In this document: positions 49,694 to 61,379 of the stretch, piece by piece | Layout: each line of letters starts with the position of its first letter | How positions within the stretch are numbered: position 1 is the stretch's first letter | Origin: Pantoea nemavictus | Lineage (GTDB): Bacteria > Pseudomonadota > Gammaproteobacteria > Enterobacterales > Enterobacteriaceae | DNA: 64,000 bases | Assembly (NCBI RefSeq): GCF_037479095.1 | Contig: NZ_JBBGZW010000001.1 | Coordinates: forward strand, 3,348,001 to 3,412,000 | Reading direction: 5' to 3' | Made by a program: the position numbers and the translations under genes | Notes under the pieces: generated by a model | Told to the model about the DNA's origin: nothing | What the model saw: the letters and a program-made list of their open reading frames with translations, nothing else | Database searches by the model: none

Positions 49694-50215
49694 ATGCAAC
49701 TGAATAAAGTGCTGAAGGGTTTGATGCTGGCTCTGCCGGTTATCGCAGTAGCTGCATGTAGCTCACACAAAAACAACAACAACGATCAGACTGGTATGGG
49801 CGCTAACGACGGTGCTTACGGTGCTGGTGCGGGCCAGAACGGTAACATGTCTTCTGACGAGCAAGCACGTCTGCAGATGCAGCAGCTGCAGCAGAACAAC
49901 ATCGTTTACTTCGGTCTGGACAAGTATGACGTGCAGTCTGATTACGCTCAGATGCTGGATCAGCACGCTGCATTCCTGCGTGGCAACCCGTCTTACAAAG
50001 TGACCATCGAAGGTCATGCGGATGAGCGCGGTACCCCAGAATACAACATCGCCCTGGGCGAACGTCGTGCAAGCGCCGTTAAGATGTATCTGCAAGGCAA
50101 AGGCGTTTCTGCTGACCAGATGTCTATCGTGTCTTACGGTAAAGAAAAACCAGCTGTACTGGGTCATGACGAAGCGGCTTACGCTAAAAACCGTCGTGCC
50201 GTACTGGTTTACTAA
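49694..50215 (+). CDS. pal: Pal, peptidoglycan-associated lipoprotein
   Basis: 173-aa outer-membrane lipoprotein. The signal sequence ends in the lipobox VAAC (Cys22 region, [13 protein letters not shown]); the OmpA-like C-terminal domain binds peptidoglycan through FDKYDV-type and [20 protein letters not shown] motifs (core [12 protein letters not shown]). Binds TolB and TolA. It follows tolB by 64 bp with an AGGATAAAG site. Confidence 0.97.
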
Positions 50216-50224
50216 GATAATCGT

Positions 50225-51019
50225 ATGATGAGTAACTTCAGACTTCATCTATTGAGTCTGTCGTTACTGGTTGGTTTAGCGGCCCCCTGGGCCGCTAATG
50301 CCCAGGCGTCAATCAGTAGCGTTGGCTCAGGCTCGGTCGAAGACCGCGTCACCACTCTTGAACGTATCTCTAATGCCCAGGCTCAGCTTCTGCAGCAGTT
50401 GCAGCAGCAGATGAGCGATAACCAAAGCGATATCGATTCGCTGCGCGGGCAAATCCAGCAAAATAGCTATCAGCTTAATCAGGTGATTGAGCGCCAGAAA
50501 CAGCTTTATCAGCAGATCGATAGCCTCAGCTCCGGCAGCAACGGTGCCCAGGCGAGCGGTGGTGCCGATGCTGCTGCAGCGGGCGCAGCGACCTCTGATA
50601 GCGGCAGCAACAGCAGCGCCACTGCGGCAGCGCCAGCTCAAACCGGCGATGCCAATACGGACTACAATGCTGCCGTTGCGCTGATTCTGGAGAAGAAGCA
50701 GTACGATCAGGCGATTACCGCCCTGCAGGCTTGGGTGAAGAAATATCCTGATTCTACCTATCAGCCGAACGCCAACTATTGGCTTGGTCAGCTGTTTTAC
50801 AACAAGGGTAAAAAAGACGATTCCGCTTACTATTTTGCCACAGTGGTAAAGAATTATTCGAAATCGCCAAAAGCCCCAGAAGCGCTGTTTAAAGTTGGCG
50901 TGATCATGCAAGAGAAGAATGACACGGCGAAAGCCAAGGCCGTCTTCCAGCAAGTGATCAAACAATTCCCAAATAGTGATTCTGCGAAGCAGGCGCAAAA
51001 ACGCCTTGCCGGGTTGTAA
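50225..51019 (+). CDS. cpoB: CpoB (YbgF), cell division coordinator
   Basis: 264-aa periplasmic protein that links PBP1B and Tol-Pal during septation in E. coli. Signal peptide to about residue 26 (ending AANAQA), a trimerising coiled coil (about 38-100, VEDRVTTLERISNAQAQLL and Gln-rich repeats), a Ser/Ala/Gly-rich linker, then TPR repeats (about 143-264, TDYNAAVALILEKKQYDQAI). Start ATG 50225 or the adjacent ATG 50228. Last gene of the tol-pal cluster. Confidence 0.95.
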   Translation: MMSNFRLHLLSLSLLVGLAAPWAANAQASISSVGSGSVEDRVTTLERISNAQAQLLQQLQQQMSDNQSDIDSLRGQIQQNSYQLNQVIERQKQLYQQIDSLSSGSNGAQASGGADAAAAGAATSDSGSNSSATAAAPAQTGDANTDYNAAVALILEKKQYDQAITALQAWVKKYPDSTYQPNANYWLGQLFYNKGKKDDSAYYFATVVKNYSKSPKAPEALFKVGVIMQEKNDTAKAKAVFQQVIKQFPNSDSAKQAQKRLAGL

Positions 51020-54205: not shown

Positions 54206-55267
54206 ATGAGCCTGATGTTTGATCCTGAAAGCGCAATCTATCCTTTCCCGCCGAAACCGGCACGTCTCAGCCACGATGAAAAAGCCCACTATAAGAACGA
54301 AATCAAACGCCTGCTGAAAGAACGTGATGCGGTGATGGTGGCGCACTACTACACCGATCCCGAAATTCAGGCGCTAGCGGAAGAGACCGGCGGCTGCGTG
54401 TCGGACTCACTGGAAATGGCGCGTTTTGGCAGCACGCATCCGGCGAAAACCTTGCTGGTGGCGGGCGTGCGTTTTATGGGGGAAACCGCGAAAATCCTCA
54501 GCCCGGAAAAAACCGTACTGATGCCCACGCTGCAGGCCGAATGTTCGCTCGATCTCGGCTGCCCCATTGAAGAGTTCAATCGCTTCTGCGATCAACATCC
54601 TGACCGCACCGTGGTGGTGTATGCCAACACTTCAGCGGCGGTCAAAGCGCGTGCGGATTGGGTGGTAACATCAAGCATCGCGGTTGAGCTGATTGAGCAT
54701 CTCGACAGCCTCGGCGAGAAAATTATCTGGGCACCCGATCGCCATCTTGGCCGTTACGTCACGCAGCAGTCCGGCGCCGATGTGCTGTGCTGGCAGGGCG
54801 CGTGCATCGTGCATGACGAATTCAAAACCCAGGCGCTGCAACGCATGAAGGCACTCTATCCGGATGCAGCGGTGCTGGTGCATCCGGAATCACCACAGGC
54901 GATTGTCAATCTGGCCGATGCGGTGGGCTCCACCAGCCAGCTGATTCAGGCGGCGCAAAGCTTGCCGCATCCACAAATGATCGTCGCCACCGATCGCGGT
55001 ATCTTCTACAAAATGCAGCAGGCGGTGCCGGAAAAAGAGCTGTTGGAAGCGCCAACCGCCGGCGAGGGCGCGACTTGCCGCAGCTGCGCGCACTGTCCGT
55101 GGATGGCGATGAACGGCCTGAAAGCGATTGCTGAAGGATTGGCGCGCGGCGGCAGCGAGCATGAAGTTCACGTGGACAGCGCCTTGCGGGAGGCCGCGTT
55201 GCGACCGCTCAACCGCATGCTATCCTTTGCAGCAGATCTCAAACTCAAGGTAAAAGGGAACGCATGA
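54206..55267 (+). CDS. nadA: NadA, quinolinate synthase
   Basis: 353-aa [4Fe-4S] enzyme that condenses iminoaspartate and dihydroxyacetone phosphate to quinolinate in NAD synthesis. The three cluster Cys are in the segments [22 protein letters not shown] and [14 protein letters not shown]. The [15 protein letters not shown] segment near residue 45 is also conserved. Length is close to E. coli NadA. pnuC follows 36 bp later. Upstream NadR-type operator. Confidence 0.96.
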
Positions 55268-55303: not shown

Positions 55304-56026
55304 ATGGACTTCTTTAGCACGCAAAATATCCTGGTTCACATCCCGCTCGGCGTGGGCGGCTACGATCTCTCATGGATTGAAGCCGTCGGCACCGTCGCGG
55401 GCCTGATGTGCATCTGGCTTGCCAGTCTCGAAAAAATCATCAACTACTTCTTCGGTCTGATTAACGTCACGCTGTTCGCGGTGATCTTTTTCCAGATCCA
55501 GCTCTATGCCAGCTTGCTGTTGCAGTTGTTCTTCTTCGTCGCCAACGTCTATGGCTGGTACGCGTGGAGTCGGCAAACGTCCAATAACGAACACGAGTTA
55601 CGGATTCGCTGGCTGCCGCTGCCGAAAGCGTTGGGCTGGGGTGCGGCATGCGTGGTGGCGATTGCCTTGATGACGGTGTACATCGATCCGGTGTTCGCTT
55701 TTCTAACCAAAACCGCGGTGGGTATCATGCAGAGCATGGGACTCAACGTGGCGATGCCGCAGCTACAGCCCGATGCGTTCCCATTCTGGGATTCGTGCAT
55801 GATGGTATTGTCGATTGTGGCGATGATTCTGATGACGCGTAAATACGTTGAAAACTGGCTGCTGTGGGTGGTGATCAACGTGATTAGCGTAATGATTTTC
55901 GCCCGTCAGGGCGTGTATGCGATGTCGCTCGAGTACGCGATCCTGACGCTGATTGCCCTCAACGGTTCGCGCTTGTGGATGCAAAGCGCACGCGAACACG
56001 GCTCGCGTGCGCTATCACATCAGTGA
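55304..56026 (+). CDS. pnuC: PnuC, nicotinamide riboside transporter
   Basis: 240-aa membrane protein with about seven transmembrane helices that imports nicotinamide riboside. Features: [47 protein letters not shown] (conserved W-x-x-W) and [20 protein letters not shown] (core NVISVMIF). Cotranscribed with nadA. Its last seven bases overlap the 3' end of zitB on the opposite strand. Confidence 0.95.
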
Positions 56027-56988
56027 TGGTGATGGGCATGTCCTTCCAGCGCAGCATGATCATGATGATCGTGCTGCGCTGCATGACTCTCTAAACCGAG
56101 CTCGCAATCTGGTCCGCTACAGGCTTGATACTCCATCTGCACCGTGGCGTGGGCAATTTGATAGTGCTCGTGCAAATAGTGGTGAATACGTTGCAGCAAG
56201 CCGTCATGGTCGTAAGGCGGTATCACCTGCACATGCAGCGTCAGCACCGGTTTTTCACCTACTTGCCAAACGTGCACATGATGCACATTACGCACCTCAT
56301 CAATATTGCGCGTCAGCTCGCGCGACAGCTTATCGGCATTGATATGGCCTGGCGCGCCTTCCAGTAACTCATGCAAACTCTCACGCAGCAGCGACCAGGC
56401 GCTGCGCACCACCAGTAATGACACCAGCAGCGAAAGAATCGGGTCAATCGGCGTCCAGCCAGTCAGCATAATGATTACGGCGGCGACAATTGCACCAACC
56501 GAACCGAGTAAATCGCCGAGCACGTGCAGCGCTGCAGCGCGCACGTTAAGATTTTTCTCTTCACTGCCGCGATGCAGTAGCCAGAATGACAGCAGATTAG
56601 CGAATAATCCGGCAATGGCGATGCCTAACATCAAACCACCGGCAATCGGCTGTGGCTGATAGAAGCGACGCAGCGCCTCCCAGACAATCAGCACGGTAAT
56701 TACCAGCAGCGCGATAGCGTTAACGAACGCCGCCAGCGTGGTCAAACGCAGCAGACCAAACGTATGACGCGCATTTGGCTTGCGCTGGGCAAACTGTACG
56801 GCCAGCAGCGCCATCAGCAGTGCGGCGGCATCGGTCAACATATGTCCGGCATCCGCCAGTAACGCCAGCGAACCTGAAACCAGTCCGCCAATCACTTCGG
56901 CCACCATAAACAGCGCGGTCACGCCAAATGCGGCCGCCAGTCGCGTGCGGTTGCCGTTAGCTGAGCCGTGAGAATGAGTGTGTGCCAT
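56020..56988 (-). CDS. zitB: ZitB, cation-diffusion-facilitator Zn(II) exporter
   Basis: 322-aa CDF transporter that exports zinc in exchange for protons. Six transmembrane helices; zinc site motifs HxxxD-type: [15 protein letters not shown] (helix II, Asp and His) and [11 protein letters not shown] (helix V). Cytoplasmic C-terminal domain with [12 protein letters not shown], then a long His-rich tail ([15 protein letters not shown]). N-terminal His motif MAHTHSHGS. Unlike E. coli, its ATG lies inside the last 32 bases of an upstream hybrid sensor kinase gene on the same strand, so expression is probably coupled to that two-component system. Confidence 0.96.
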
Positions 56989-59900
56989 AATTTTCCAGTT
57001 GTTTTAGTAACCTGTTTGTTAATGATATCAGTAAATTGAGATTATCAACCTGCAACTGTTGCTGTTTAGCCTGCACAATCAGTTGCTGGCAGCGCTCGGC
57101 TACCTCCTCCATACCCAACATCAACCAGCTGCCCTTCATGCGGTGCGCCGCCTGTTCCAGTAAGGACCAGTTCTGGGTCGCGCGCGCGTTAAGCAGCGCA
57201 TCACGATCCTGCTGTAGGGTACGTTGCAGAGTCTGGCAAATGCGCGGAATAAACGCCTGATTATTCTGCGCCAGAATCAGCAGGCTATTTGGCAACGCAG
57301 CCAATGGATCCATTGCCGCTCGCGCCAGCAGCGGTGCCAGATGATCGAGCTCGAACGGTTTTAACAGTAATGCTTCATCATCCTGCAGCGTCATTTTCAG
57401 CAACTGTACATCGGCAGAGCAGAGCACGCGCAGCACGTTTGTGCCACGCTGGCGCTGACGACGGCGCAGAATGCGCAGCAGGGTTAAACCATCCGGGCGC
57501 GGCATCATCTGGTCGATAAACAGCATATCAAACGGCTGCCTGTCATCTGCCTGCAGCAGCGCTCGACCCTCTTCAAACACCATTGCTTCCACGCCAAAGT
57601 TGGCCAGCTGCTGCTGCATCACTAAAAGATTGGTGGGATGATCGTCAACGATCGCTACGCGCAAATGGGAATAGCGTGGCCAGCTTGCTGTGCGCTCGGT
57701 TGATGGCGCTTCACTCAGCACCAGCGGCAATTGCACCCTAACCGTGGTGCCGAGTCCTGGCTGCGAAGTCAGCGTCAGCGTGCCCCCCATGCGTTGCACG
57801 ATTTCGCGGCAGATAAACAGCCCCAAGCCGCTGCCTTGCACGGCATGGCTTTTGCCGGACGGCGCTTGGTACCATGGCTCGAACAGCTGCGCTTGCTCGC
57901 TGAGCGGGATGCCACTGCCGCTGTCGGTCACCGTCAGCTGAATATCTTCCTCGACCGCCAGCGACAGGCGCACTTCGCCCGCGCGGGTAAATTTTAGCGC
58001 GTTGGCCACCAGATTATTCACCACCTGCTGCAGGCGATCGCCATCCAGCAACACGCAGGCTGGTAGCGGCGTCAGCGCTTCAGCAATCAGCACTGGCCCG
58101 GTGTCACGCATCAAAGGATGATAAAACTGCTGCTGTTGCTGTAGCCAGTGCACCAGATTAAGCGGGCGTGGCGCCAGGCGGAAGCTCTGACTCTCAATGC
58201 GTGCGTGATCCTGCAGATCGTTCAACAGGGCCATCAGCGATCGCGCGCTGCTGTGCATCAGCGCCAGGCGTTCGCTCGGATGCTGCTGCTGTTCCAGCTC
58301 CAGCAAACCGAGAATTGCCTGCATCGGCGTACGCAGCTCGTGACTGGCGGTGGCGAGAAACTGGCTCTTGGCGGCATTAGCGCGCTCGGCCTGTTCGCGC
58401 TGCCGCCGGTCGCGGCGCTGTTGCCAATAGCGACGCAGCAACAAGGCTAATAGCAGCAAAATCGTCATGCCGGCGACGATCAGGATCATCAACGGAATAT
58501 TGCGCATCGCCATGCTGTTACCCGGCTGTGGCGGCTGTGACCAGCTCACGCGCATCTGGTTGAGCGTGTCGGGGGGAATCTGTTGGAGTGCATGATCGAG
58601 CAGCGCACGTAACTGCGGTTGTGCAGCACTGACCTGCGGCGCCAATGGCCAGGCAATATCGCTGGCGGCAAACGCCAGATGAACGCGATTATCCTGATGA
58701 CTCGCCATGCGCCAGCGCGCTGACAGCACGTTATCCACTAAGGCATCGATCTGACCACTGTTCAGCGCCTGCCACAGCTGTGCGCGATCCTCAAACAGCT
58801 GTGGCACCATGCCGGGTGGCAACAAACGCTGGGCTAAATCTGCGCGCACGATGCCAACGCGCTGGCCTTGCAGGGTTTGCCAGTTCATGGGTTGCGATGT
58901 GGAAAGGGTATAAATCCCCCAAATGGCGCGCCAAACCGGCAAGGTATTGCTGTTGGCATCGTCGCCAAACAGCGGCTGAAACAGTTTCAGCATCACCTGC
59001 TGTTGTTGCATTAACGTGGTGGCCTGTTGCGGATTGCTAACCCAATGCGGCGTAAAGCGCAGGCCGGTGCTTTGGCTGAGCGCATTGAGCAGATCGATAC
59101 CAAAGCCGCGAGCATTGCCATTGCTATCGCGATAGCTCCACGGGGCGTTATCTGCTTCAACGGCGTAAGGGATGTCAGTATGCTGCGCCAGCCACTGCTT
59201 TTCGCTGGCTGAGAGCATCAGGGTTTGCGTGTCCTGATAGCGCAACAGCGGCGGGCTCCAGCGCTGCTGTACGCGATTGCTGAACTCGGCGGGCAGCAGG
59301 CGCAGCTGGCTGTTGAGCCAGTGAATCAGGGCTTGATCGCGCGTTAAAGCGCGTAAGGTTAACTCGCTGGCGCCGGGATCGGCGGTAATCTGATAAATCT
59401 GTCCCTGCTGCAGCTGGCCGAGCAAAAAGCCCGCGCTGGCTTCGTCAGCCACCAGATAATCGCTCTGCTGATTCAGCAAGGCATACAGCGCCTGCAGATC
59501 ACCCGGCAGGCTATGCCAGCGGTGCTGCTGCACAAAATCGGCTGGCAGTTGGGCCAGCGTGGCTTCAGCGATAGTGAGCTGGGCGGTCTCGCTATTGAAC
59601 ATCACCGCGCGCTGGTTATCGCGGTTGCGATAGATGCGAATCGGGCTGCTGTACCAGCTGTCGCTCAGCAGAATATCGGGCGGCAACTGTGTGTGTTCGG
59701 TGCTCAACACCAAATCCACCTCGCCGCGCTGCAGCGCCGCCAGCTGCTGACTACGATCCGCATAGCTTTGCAGCGTAAAGTGGGTGCCGGTCAGTTGGCT
59801 GAGAGCACTAAGATAATCAGCATCAATGCCCCAAATGCGATCGCCGATCCGCATCGCCCATGGGGCGCTATTTTGCGCCGGAACCGCGACGCGCAACGAT

Positions 59901-60028
59901 GCACCGGGCCATGGCTCAGCATGCGGCGCAGGCATCATGGCGGGCAACATCACGCTGCTGGCGGGTTGCAAATCGGCTCTCGCCAGCAGACTCAGCAGTA
60001 ACGTACACAGCAACAGCCAAATCCTCAC
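56957..60028 (-). CDS. BvgS/EvgS-type hybrid sensor histidine kinase
   Basis: About 1023 aa. Start GTG 60028 chosen: GTGA overlap with the regulator stop, GGAAAG upstream, and the signal peptide [18 protein letters not shown] at once; GTG 60043 would add five residues. Two periplasmic family-3 solute-binding domains (about 45-265 and 275-490), one membrane helix (about 511-531), a short linker with no PAS domain, HisKA with His563 in [10 protein letters not shown], HATPase ([26 protein letters not shown]), a receiver with Asp839 in [12 protein letters not shown], and a C-terminal Hpt with His962 in AHRMKGSW. All phosphorelay residues are present. Resembles EvgS/BvgS but lacks the usual PAS. 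Ligand unknown. Overlaps zitB by 32 nt. Confidence 0.92.
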
Positions 60029-60609
60029 TGCTGCGCTTTCCACAGTTCGGCGAGTTCTACAACCGATTGCACGCCGGTTTTCTCCAGAATATTTTTCTTG
60101 TGGGTGCTTACGGTTTTATTACTGATATGCAGCTGTTCGCCAATCTGCAAATTCGACAATCCCTTCACCAGCAGCGCCACAATTTGCTGCTCTTTCTCGG
60201 TTAAAGGCAGTTCGATACGTTCTGGCAGCGGCGGGAAGGCTTGTTGGCCGCCGAGCACCGCCAAAATGGCACTGAGCAGTTGCGCCATACTTTGGCTCTT
60301 TACCACATAACCGGCGGCACCGAGCGATACCGCACTGAGCAACGTGTGGCGACTCTGCTGTGCTGAGTAGATCAACACCGGGCATTGCTGATTGCGCAGG
60401 CGTAAACGGCGCAATAGCTCCAGTCCGTCGCAGTCCGGCAAACCGATATCAAGCACAATCACATCAATGTGATGCAGCTGAAGCAGTTGGCGTGCTTGCG
60501 CTTCATCGCCAGCAGCGTGAATTTTTAAGGGGATGGGGGCGTGAGCACTCGCCGCTTCCAGTGCGACGGCAACTAACGGATGATCATCAATAAGTAGCAA
60601 TGAAGCCAT
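60025..60609 (-). CDS. LuxR/NarL-family response regulator (EvgA/BvgA-like)
   Basis: 194-aa regulator. Receiver (1-120): acidic pair D8-D9, phospho-Asp54 in VIVLDIGLPDCDG, Thr/Ser switch in LIYSAQQS, Lys in GYVVKSQS. C-terminal LuxR-type helix-turn-helix (about 135-194): LTEKEQQIVALLVKGLSNLQIG and ISNKTVSTHKKNILEKTG (core TVSTHKKNIL). First gene of the operon; its TGA overlaps the kinase GTG. The likely acceptor of the phosphorelay through the kinase Hpt. Regulon unknown; zitB downstream is an obvious candidate. Confidence 0.93.
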   Translation of the reverse strand: MASLLLIDDHPLVAVALEAASAHAPIPLKIHAAGDEAQARQLLQLHHIDVIVLDIGLPDCDGLELLRRLRLRNQQCPVLIYSAQQSRHTLLSAVSLGAAGYVVKSQSMAQLLSAILAVLGGQQAFPPLPERIELPLTEKEQQIVALLVKGLSNLQIGEQLHISNKTVSTHKKNILEKTGVQSVVELAELWKAQQ

Positions 60610-60662
60610 GAATCAGTTCCTGTGAATTTCATTGCTCCAGCATAGCGGAAAAGGGCAGGGGG

Positions 60663-60694
60663 AAAAATAAAAGGGAGAGCCGAAGCTCTCCCTT
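60663..60694 (-). terminator. Terminator of ybgS
   Basis: 10-bp stem AAGGGAGAGC / GCTCTCCCTT with a TTCG loop on the minus strand, followed by TTATTTTTCC. It separates ybgS from the two-component operon. Confidence 0.9.
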
Positions 60695-60713: not shown

Positions 60714-61079
60714 TTATTGCGCGGTACCGTCAGTTTTATGTTTCACGTGGCCGCCACCTTCTTTAGTGTCGACTTTCTTATTCATATCCGGGCATTTGCC
60801 GTCTTTACACATGCTGTTTTTGTGAACCTGGCTGGCTGACATATTGCTTGAATCAGTGCCTGAGGTTGCCGCGCTATTAGTATTGGTGCTGCCACTGTTG
60901 ATTTTGCTGTTATCAACGTTATTCGGTGGCAGGTTCTGTTTTGCATCGCCCGCTGCTGCGCCCGCTTCAGCTGCAGCATTAGCCGCGCCATTATTGTCTG
61001 AAGAGTTATCTGCAGCCATAACCGCACCGCTACCTAAAGTCATCGCTGCCGTCAGAAAGATAATTGCAAACTTATTCAT
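60714..61079 (-). CDS. ybgS: YbgS, small secreted protein of unknown function
   Basis: About 121-aa protein with a signal peptide (MNKFAIIFLTAAMTLGSGAV, cleavage after VMA-A). The mature part is low-complexity, rich in Asn, Ser, Ala and Gly, then a conserved KNSMCKDGKCPDMNKKV motif with two Cys, and a charged tail. The motif and position match E. coli YbgS. Start ATG 61079 has GGAG seven bases upstream; the adjacent ATG 61082 is possible. Periplasmic or surface location is inferred; function unknown. Confidence 0.9.
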   Translation of the reverse strand: MNKFAIIFLTAAMTLGSGAVMAADNSSDNNGAANAAAEAGAAAGDAKQNLPPNNVDNSKINSGSTNTNSAATSGTDSSNMSASQVHKNSMCKDGKCPDMNKKVDTKEGGGHVKHKTDGTAQ

Positions 61080-61379
61080 CATTATGCTCCAGTAATTAAT
61101 GGATAGTTGCCGTCAAACACCTGCTGGTGTTGTGTGACGAAAATAGCGTGCCGCGATGGAATAAAATTCCACCTTATACGCTTCGCTTAAATATTAAATT
61201 TTGCAAACACATCAATCCTTAGTGCTTACATTTAAAAAGCTTAGTGCATGGAAATATAAATGCAAATTTGAGATGTACATTTTAAGACGGGTACGTAATT
61301 TACACCCACCCTGTGAAGGGCTAAAGTGGGCGGGTTGCGCCCGACGGACGTTGGGCCAGAAATTTGAATGGAATGACGT

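Follow-up and report, generated by a model that had tools for sequence, protein, structure and literature searches.

A BvgS/EvgS-like phosphorelay pair linked to zitB in Pantoea and related bacteria, with a candidate zitB promoter inside the kinase gene

In a stretch of 64,000 nt from Pantoea nemavictus (contig NZ_JBBGZW010000001.1, positions 3,348,001 to 3,412,000, hereafter the window), belonging to a genome of 5.19 Mb on two contigs, a response regulator and a hybrid sensor kinase of the BvgS/EvgS kind are encoded directly upstream of zitB, the gene for a zinc exporter of the cation diffusion facilitator (CDF) family. According to the model we propose, to which we give about even chances of being correct, this is a two-promoter locus, where the BvgS/EvgS-like relay can add read-through from a promoter in front of the regulator gene (P1) to a zitB gene served by its own promoter (P2), situated in the last codons of the kinase gene.

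The three genes follow one another head to tail on the minus strand, preceded by ybgS and a terminator-like site, which confirms the arrangement described in an earlier sequence-only reading of the same DNA. The regulator (60025..60609, 194 amino acids) is of the NarL/FixJ type, and the domain search found in it a receiver domain (REC) and a GerE/LuxR-type helix-turn-helix; a REC domain joined to a LuxR-type helix-turn-helix and encoded beside the kinase is what is expected of a BvgA/EvgA-like regulator. The hybrid kinase gene occupies 56957..60043 and encodes 1028 amino acids, or 1023 if translation starts at the GTG at 60028. The zitB gene (56020..56988), with the Cation_efflux and ZT_dimer domains, scores 565.4 bits against the ZitB equivalog model NF002923, whose cut-off is 408, and it is the only gene that follows the pair in the same direction. 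The kinase and zitB reading frames share 32 nt, as had been claimed, and the claimed overlap of 4 nt between regulator and kinase holds for the start at GTG 60028, becoming 19 nt if the GTG at 60043 is used. In 16 Erwiniaceae-type loci, the -19 position is a start codon in 15 (GTG in 11, ATG in 3 and TTG in 1) and CTG in the remaining one, and the -4 position is GTG in 15, so that both starts stay open.

The arrangement of regulator, kinase and zitB is not a chance adjacency, since it recurs in 19 of 19 loci in the family search and in 56 of 57 in Pantoea. The family search covered 295 genomes, with 712 bits or more defining a kinase orthologue; the next related kinase scored 282 bits, and the group is sharply bounded by this gap. 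Orthologues were present in 19 genomes, and in each of them the next gene downstream was zitB, itself broken in one case (L021). Within Pantoea, the kinase, whole or broken, was found in 57 of 61 genomes and zitB in 58, and the single kinase not adjoining zitB (G583) is cut at a contig end, with zitB on another contig. One Pantoea genome (G592) has zitB and no kinase, both genes are missing from three small genomes, and in three others (G590, G591, G609) a decayed kinase stands beside an open zitB frame. The pair was found neither elsewhere nor without zitB in the family and Pantoea searches, among orthologues down to about 40% identity, so that one finding named in the sequence-only reading as speaking against it, the pair in relatives lacking zitB downstream, was not made. 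Moreover, in both the Erwiniaceae-type and the Serratia-like groups, kinase and zitB overlap or lie no more than 81 nt apart, broken-frame loci aside.

The order kinase-zitB-pnuC was seen in seventeen named loci, fourteen labelled Pantoea and three Enterobacter or Erwinia, with the regulator present in all fifteen whose contig reaches that far; the closest named match among those listed was Pantoea sp. RIT-PI-b (L044), with a kinase 99% identical. The three loci labelled Enterobacter ludwigii (L046), Enterobacter cancerogenus (L035) and Erwinia sp. (L043) have kinases 83-88% identical to the Pantoea kinase in surroundings of the Pantoea type, and their records look like mislabelled Pantoea. 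In two Pantoea loci, L037 and L045, gpmA, aroG and ybgS were not found within more than 5 kb upstream, and L037 has instead genes resembling an aminotransferase and a SIS-domain regulator, as identified from reading the translations. Regulator, kinase, zitB and pnuC are nevertheless intact in both, so that the first three remained linked although their surroundings changed. Among the best 120 of 133 protein matches, named relatives carrying the kinase include Pantoea, Mixta, Winslowiella, Erwinia and Serratia entomophila, and an order-level sample of 295 genomes gave at least 4 kinase matches at E <= 1e-80, all from one genus. A second, distant EvgS-like kinase is encoded in the genome of the window itself (G000:C1:1319979-1323044; 27% identity, 233 bits).

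A promoter of zitB inside the kinase gene, which the sequence-only reading had itself named as speaking against its interpretation, is strongly indicated in Erwiniaceae-type loci by comparative sequence analysis. The candidate P2 is an extended -10 element (TGATATCAT) in kinase codons 1005-1007 (57022..57030, minus strand). Its statistics were obtained on 33 Erwiniaceae-type loci, which are related, so that the probabilities for single loci cannot be treated as independent. The set contains at least one genome twice (L039 and L139), and one member, L049, has a kinase frame cut to 686 amino acids; left out were L035 and L036 (5′ end cut), L044 (near-identical to the window), L047 (broken frames), and L004-L009 and L117-L120 (further copies of genomes already included), and L122-L126, where the locus is decayed or broken, were analysed separately. 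In the window, G+C content is 25% over the 60 nt of kinase sequence immediately preceding the zitB start, as opposed to 58% for the whole gene, and in 29 of the 33 loci these 60 nt are poorer in G+C than any other window in the final 1.2 kb of the kinase. The gene's sole ATA codon lies in the same stretch, and nowhere else in the gene are rare codons so densely clustered, judged by a set of eight codons of our own choice. Synonymous variation is likewise depressed there: of 391 windows, a 10-codon window at the kinase 3′ end has the fewest synonymous differences relative to expectation (observed/expected 0.43, compared to 0.82 overall), and at its ATA, TCA and AAT codons 12, 0 and 0 differences were observed where 194, 179 and 95 were expected.

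The extended -10 in the last 75 nt scores 7 out of 8 in 26 of the 33 loci and 6 out of 8 in the other seven, as opposed to none at 7 and 23 at 6 among 462 background windows from the same genes. With synonymous resampling, a score as high as that observed came up in 0 to 3.4% of trials when the locus stood at 7 and in 1.3 to 9.4% when it stood at 6. The position is also constant, the best -10 match lying 40-45 nt before the zitB start in all of 42 loci, made up of the 33, four loci without the kinase and five from Pantoea in which it is decayed or broken. The variants encountered (TGATATCAT, TGATATTAT, TGCTACTAT, TGTTATTAT, TGATATAAT and others) all retain the -10 pattern, and the palindrome present in the commonest form is not maintained among them.

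Furthermore, the element can persist where the kinase is gone. The regions upstream of zitB in 130 kinase-less loci (out of 131 with zitB above the cut-off, G283 being left out) and 7 other regions were searched with a profile built from the last 75 nt, and the best of 2740 shuffles reached 7.4 bits. The kinase 3′ end with the P2 element is retained in four of the 130 loci, namely L082 (25.7 bits), L083 (23.9), L178 (18.2) and L085 (11.9), upholding remnants that had been noticed by eye in all of these but L083; L083 also holds a kinase remnant at the protein level (E 6.6e-4), the only one found among the 50 kinase-less loci then compared. A fifth candidate, L095, was not counted, its 7.7 bits being barely above the best shuffle. 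The decayed or broken Pantoea kinases L122-L126 match the profile at 57.7-69.1 bits; in L122, L123 and L124 the kinase is decayed, the zitB frame is open and the embedded -10 element is kept. Because the element persists in four genomes without the regulator, a basal level of zitB transcription from P2 would need no regulator, and zitB as a whole need not depend on it.

The region in front of the regulator gene shows conservation of its own. P1 is a -10-like TATGCT (60639..60644, minus strand), defined by alignment and profile, and lies inside a block, TTTTCCGCTATGCT, that is conserved before the regulator gene in 17 aligned Erwiniaceae-type loci. The profile of this block also matches the Serratia-like loci L107, L113 and L106 (11.6, 11.2 and 8.9 bits). 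In the kinase-less locus L084, it occurs directly before zitB with 16.5 bits, the best of 2820 shuffles being 9.9, an arrangement as might arise if a deletion had given the regulator-type promoter block to zitB. A possible P1 remnant in L083 was rejected, as its 5.4 bits fall under the best shuffle. Between ybgS and the regulator gene, the consensus scan found an intrinsic terminator-like site (60671..60694, minus strand) with a stem of 10 pairs, a loop of 4 nt and a T-rich tail, which separates ybgS from the regulator gene.

In regard to the sensor itself, the domain search found in the kinase SBP_bac_3 in two stretches, HisKA, HATPase_c, REC and Hpt, in agreement with the EvgS/BvgS type recognised in the sequence-only reading. 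The tandem periplasmic Venus-flytrap domains, VFT1 (about residues 45-270, 59234..59911) and VFT2 (about residues 278-510, 58514..59212), are supported by PF00497, matched in two stretches, and by similarity in sequence and fold to the periplasmic structures of EvgS (9ilw) and BvgS (4q0c), which for VFT2 reaches E 3.7e-19 and 2.2e-7, respectively. In the fold comparison the same two structures ranked first by E-value, their TM-scores being only 0.44 by target length; as the model of the periplasmic part had a mean pLDDT of 74 and a pTM of 0.35, it was used for the fold class only. On the cytoplasmic side follow HisKA (58190..58372) with the phospho-acceptor His568, HATPase_c (57722..58045), the internal receiver (57335..57658) with Asp844 and Hpt (57014..57238) with His967, and the three relay residues are invariant in 25 orthologues. 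HisKA begins about 20 residues from the membrane segment and no match to a PAS domain was found in the window protein; the other aligned orthologues have room for at most some 15 residues more, too few for such a domain in any of the 25. The missing PAS domain excludes the kinase from BvgS/EvgS proper, and it is kept in the wider family because BvgS homologues are described as varying in domain composition (PMC4352136).

The periplasmic parts of the 25 orthologues contain no Cys and no invariant His, the best column, H288, being His in 88% of them. Direct zinc sensing through conserved His or Cys is hence unsupported in these proteins, sites built of Asp and Glu alone being conceivable, and the envelope zinc signal proposed in the sequence-only reading finds no backing in the sensor. 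By our reading of the alignment, VFT2 also lacks the Arg found at the corresponding place in EvgS, BvgS and glutamine-binding sequences, which we take to have a role in ligand binding. Given the lack of Cys and invariant His and the missing Arg, neither zinc nor a classical amino acid is indicated as the ligand.

Taken together, the locus could work as follows. P1, behind the ybgS terminator, would transcribe the regulator and kinase genes and, through read-through, zitB, and P2 would transcribe zitB alone, providing a basal level independent of the regulator; we infer that both elements are active as promoters and that transcription from P1 reaches zitB. The kinase would act as a BvgS/EvgS-like envelope sensor with two Venus-flytrap domains, one membrane segment and a His-Asp-His relay in the absence of PAS, handing its phosphate to the NarL-type regulator. 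The latter would most likely act on its own P1 and could thereby, in some condition of the envelope, bring ZitB to more than the basal amount. EvgA is described as binding upstream of its own operon (PMC5573083), and since no regulator-binding site was identified here, autoregulation at P1 rests on analogy with this case.

Several observations weigh against the two-promoter model, the lack of an identified regulator-binding site being one of them. No significant P2 remnant was found in 126 of the 130 kinase-less loci, of which 125 did not exceed the shuffles, nor in locus L121 of G592, the Pantoea genome from which the kinase was lost (1.5 bits). A conserved -35 was not identified. A consensus promoter scan that requires a -35 at a spacing of 16-18 nt missed both P1 and P2 and found 3 sites where shuffles gave a mean of 4.0. 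An embedded promoter in the Serratia-like group was considered and rejected: TATAAT-like sites seen there by eye are not supported statistically, most -10 matches in the Serratia-like kinase genes do not surpass those found in other parts of the gene, and remnants suspected by eye in the kinase-less Serratia-like loci L087, L088 and L096 are not significant (E 0.41 for L096, no match for the other two).

According to the strongest rival, a real possibility that we nevertheless do not favour, the pair is present by descent, has its regulon elsewhere and is a passive neighbour of a zitB gene served in practice by P2 alone, the adjacency having no function. It is favoured by the absence of the pair from 131 of the 149 family genomes with zitB above the cut-off, which also counts against the interpretation in the sequence-only reading. 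The block aroG-(ybgS)-zitB-pnuC is indeed largely stable with or without the pair, vertical descent would keep neighbours together, and the P2 element persists in four loci from which the pair is missing. Such an explanation is, however, harder to reconcile with a pair that was found neither at another site nor without zitB in the genomes searched, even among the most diverged orthologues, with its staying beside zitB in L037 and L045 as the upstream neighbourhood changed, and with the tight packing of kinase and zitB in both groups.

The two remaining explanations concern the signal. A dedicated zinc system, in which the sensor would detect periplasmic zinc and the regulator switch zitB on through the operon, would fit the gene order and the conserved linkage, and zinc-responsive two-component systems linked to a CDF gene are described, as in czcDRS (PMC10127602). 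We consider it unlikely, as it is opposed by the absence of Cys and invariant His from the 25 periplasmic parts, by zitB having its own promoter element in Erwiniaceae-type loci, and by the lack of any Zur- or ZntR-like box between window positions 55001 and 61500, where the best matches to the two consensus sequences had 10/23 and 8/22 mismatches. Still less probable, in our judgement very much so, is that a small organic ligand, nicotinate-like or another metabolite, is sensed and zinc efflux is a secondary output. It would agree with the periplasmic match to BvgS and EvgS, as VFT2 of BvgS is reported to bind nicotinate (PMC4352136), and with the neighbouring pnuC and nadA, both of NAD metabolism. 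On the other hand, pnuC is convergent, and in most loci compared it adjoins zitB whether the pair is present or not; VFT2 also lacks the Arg mentioned above.

The history of the pair can be followed in part through the kinase-less loci. The nearest recognised gene upstream of zitB in the 130 of them is ybgS in 86, aroG in 42 and gpmA in 1, with none recognised in 1, and no kinase or regulator match at E <= 1e-6 was found upstream of zitB in any; 11 have more than 500 nt before zitB, DNA whose content lies outside this gene tally, and L217 has N letters there. The sequence-only reading, which placed the pair between zitB and ybgS by comparison with the E. coli type of gene order, is right in outline on this point. 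A FastTree phylogeny of zitB with 148 rows, 19 with and 129 without the kinase (L216 was excluded as too short), divides the kinase-bearing rows between an Erwiniaceae-like and a Serratia-like region, and the kinase label takes 8 changes on it as opposed to about 18 for shuffled labels, the deep branches being weakly supported. Kinase-less L085 is sister to kinase-bearing L104, and kinase-less L084 to L103. Because of these sister pairs and of the kinase and P1 remnants in kinase-less loci, repeated loss of the pair inside the Erwiniaceae-like group is indicated. The sequence-only reading had left insertion here and loss in E. coli as alternatives; such losses can now be added within the Erwiniaceae-type group, and for the E. 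coli side the tree is compatible with either loss or original absence.

It is also conceivable, though we regard it as doubtful and put it forward tentatively, that the locus represents a family of PAS-less BvgS/EvgS-like phosphorelays, not yet described, whose members serve ZitB specifically in Erwiniaceae and in Serratia-like bacteria. Read-through would then increase zinc efflux in response to a signal from the envelope, though not to free zinc; in Erwiniaceae this would come in addition to transcription from a basal zitB promoter that is built into the kinase gene and outlives the kinase. If true, this would broaden the outputs known for BvgS/EvgS-like sensors. The control of zitB in enterobacteria is unsettled, the E. 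coli gene being described as zinc-inducible (PMC4424684) or constitutive (PMC5768658) and that of Salmonella as PhoB-dependent under phosphorus starvation (PMC10055408), and the locus offers a concrete candidate regulator of zitB in Pantoea, Mixta, Erwinia, Winslowiella and Serratia. It would, in addition, be a clean case of a promoter in the coding sequence of a neighbour that is retained once the neighbour is lost.

Around the three genes, ybgS (60714..61082, minus strand; PF13985, 165.8 bits) is the upstream neighbour in the same direction, and pnuC (55304..56026, plus strand; open reading frame and family match) is convergent with zitB, their 3′ ends overlapping by 7 nt (window 56020-56026). 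Elsewhere in the window, positions 50116-50254 of the plus strand match the CpoB/ybgF RNA thermometer (Rfam RF02782) with 115 bits, the gathering score being 51.

Overall, the interpretation given in the sequence-only reading is partly supported. Its remark that such a coupling would be unusual needs to be narrowed, since in czcDRS of Cupriavidus metallidurans a CDF gene and a two-component system share one transcript (PMC10127602) and EvgAS is known to control efflux pumps (PMC5573083); it stands for this type of sensor, in that no CDF operon with a tandem Venus-flytrap phosphorelay sensor was found described in the openly licensed literature. A description of this very pair was likewise not found among the papers listed from openly licensed full-text literature (CC0, CC BY or CC BY-SA), as judged from titles and the starts of abstracts, and EvgS, BvgS and zitB are absent from the main text of a two-component study of E. 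amylovora (PMC2698875).

Among the known systems, zitB of E. coli and Salmonella belongs to the same gene family as the window gene, the ZitB model matching in three of 14 control genomes, E. coli included, one of them above the cut-off. To our knowledge, zitB has no adjacent two-component pair in these two species. In czcDRS, the CDF gene stands first and the kinase is not known to be of the tandem Venus-flytrap phosphorelay type. Its likeness to the window locus lies in having a CDF zinc exporter and two-component genes together; unlike here, a CDF promoter embedded in the kinase gene was not found for czcDRS in the available part of the source (PMC10127602). Zinc sensors of the CzcRS/ZraSR kind have conserved metal ligands in the sensor domain, which the window kinase does not show. 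BvgS/BvgA of Bordetella shares the overall architecture, and the BvgS structure 4q0c is the top fold match by E-value, whereas the window kinase has no PAS domain and the genomic context differs as well. Closest in plan is EvgS/EvgA of E. coli, with the same tandem Venus-flytrap domains, HisKA-HATPase-REC-Hpt relay, adjacent NarL-type regulator and alignment to 9ilw. The window pair differs from it in the missing PAS domain, in the missing Arg of VFT2, in scores far under the NCBIfam equivalog cut-offs (253.9 vs. 1995 bits for EvgS and, among the matches shown, 93.7 vs. 251 bits for EvgA), and in being linked to zitB, not to emrKY.

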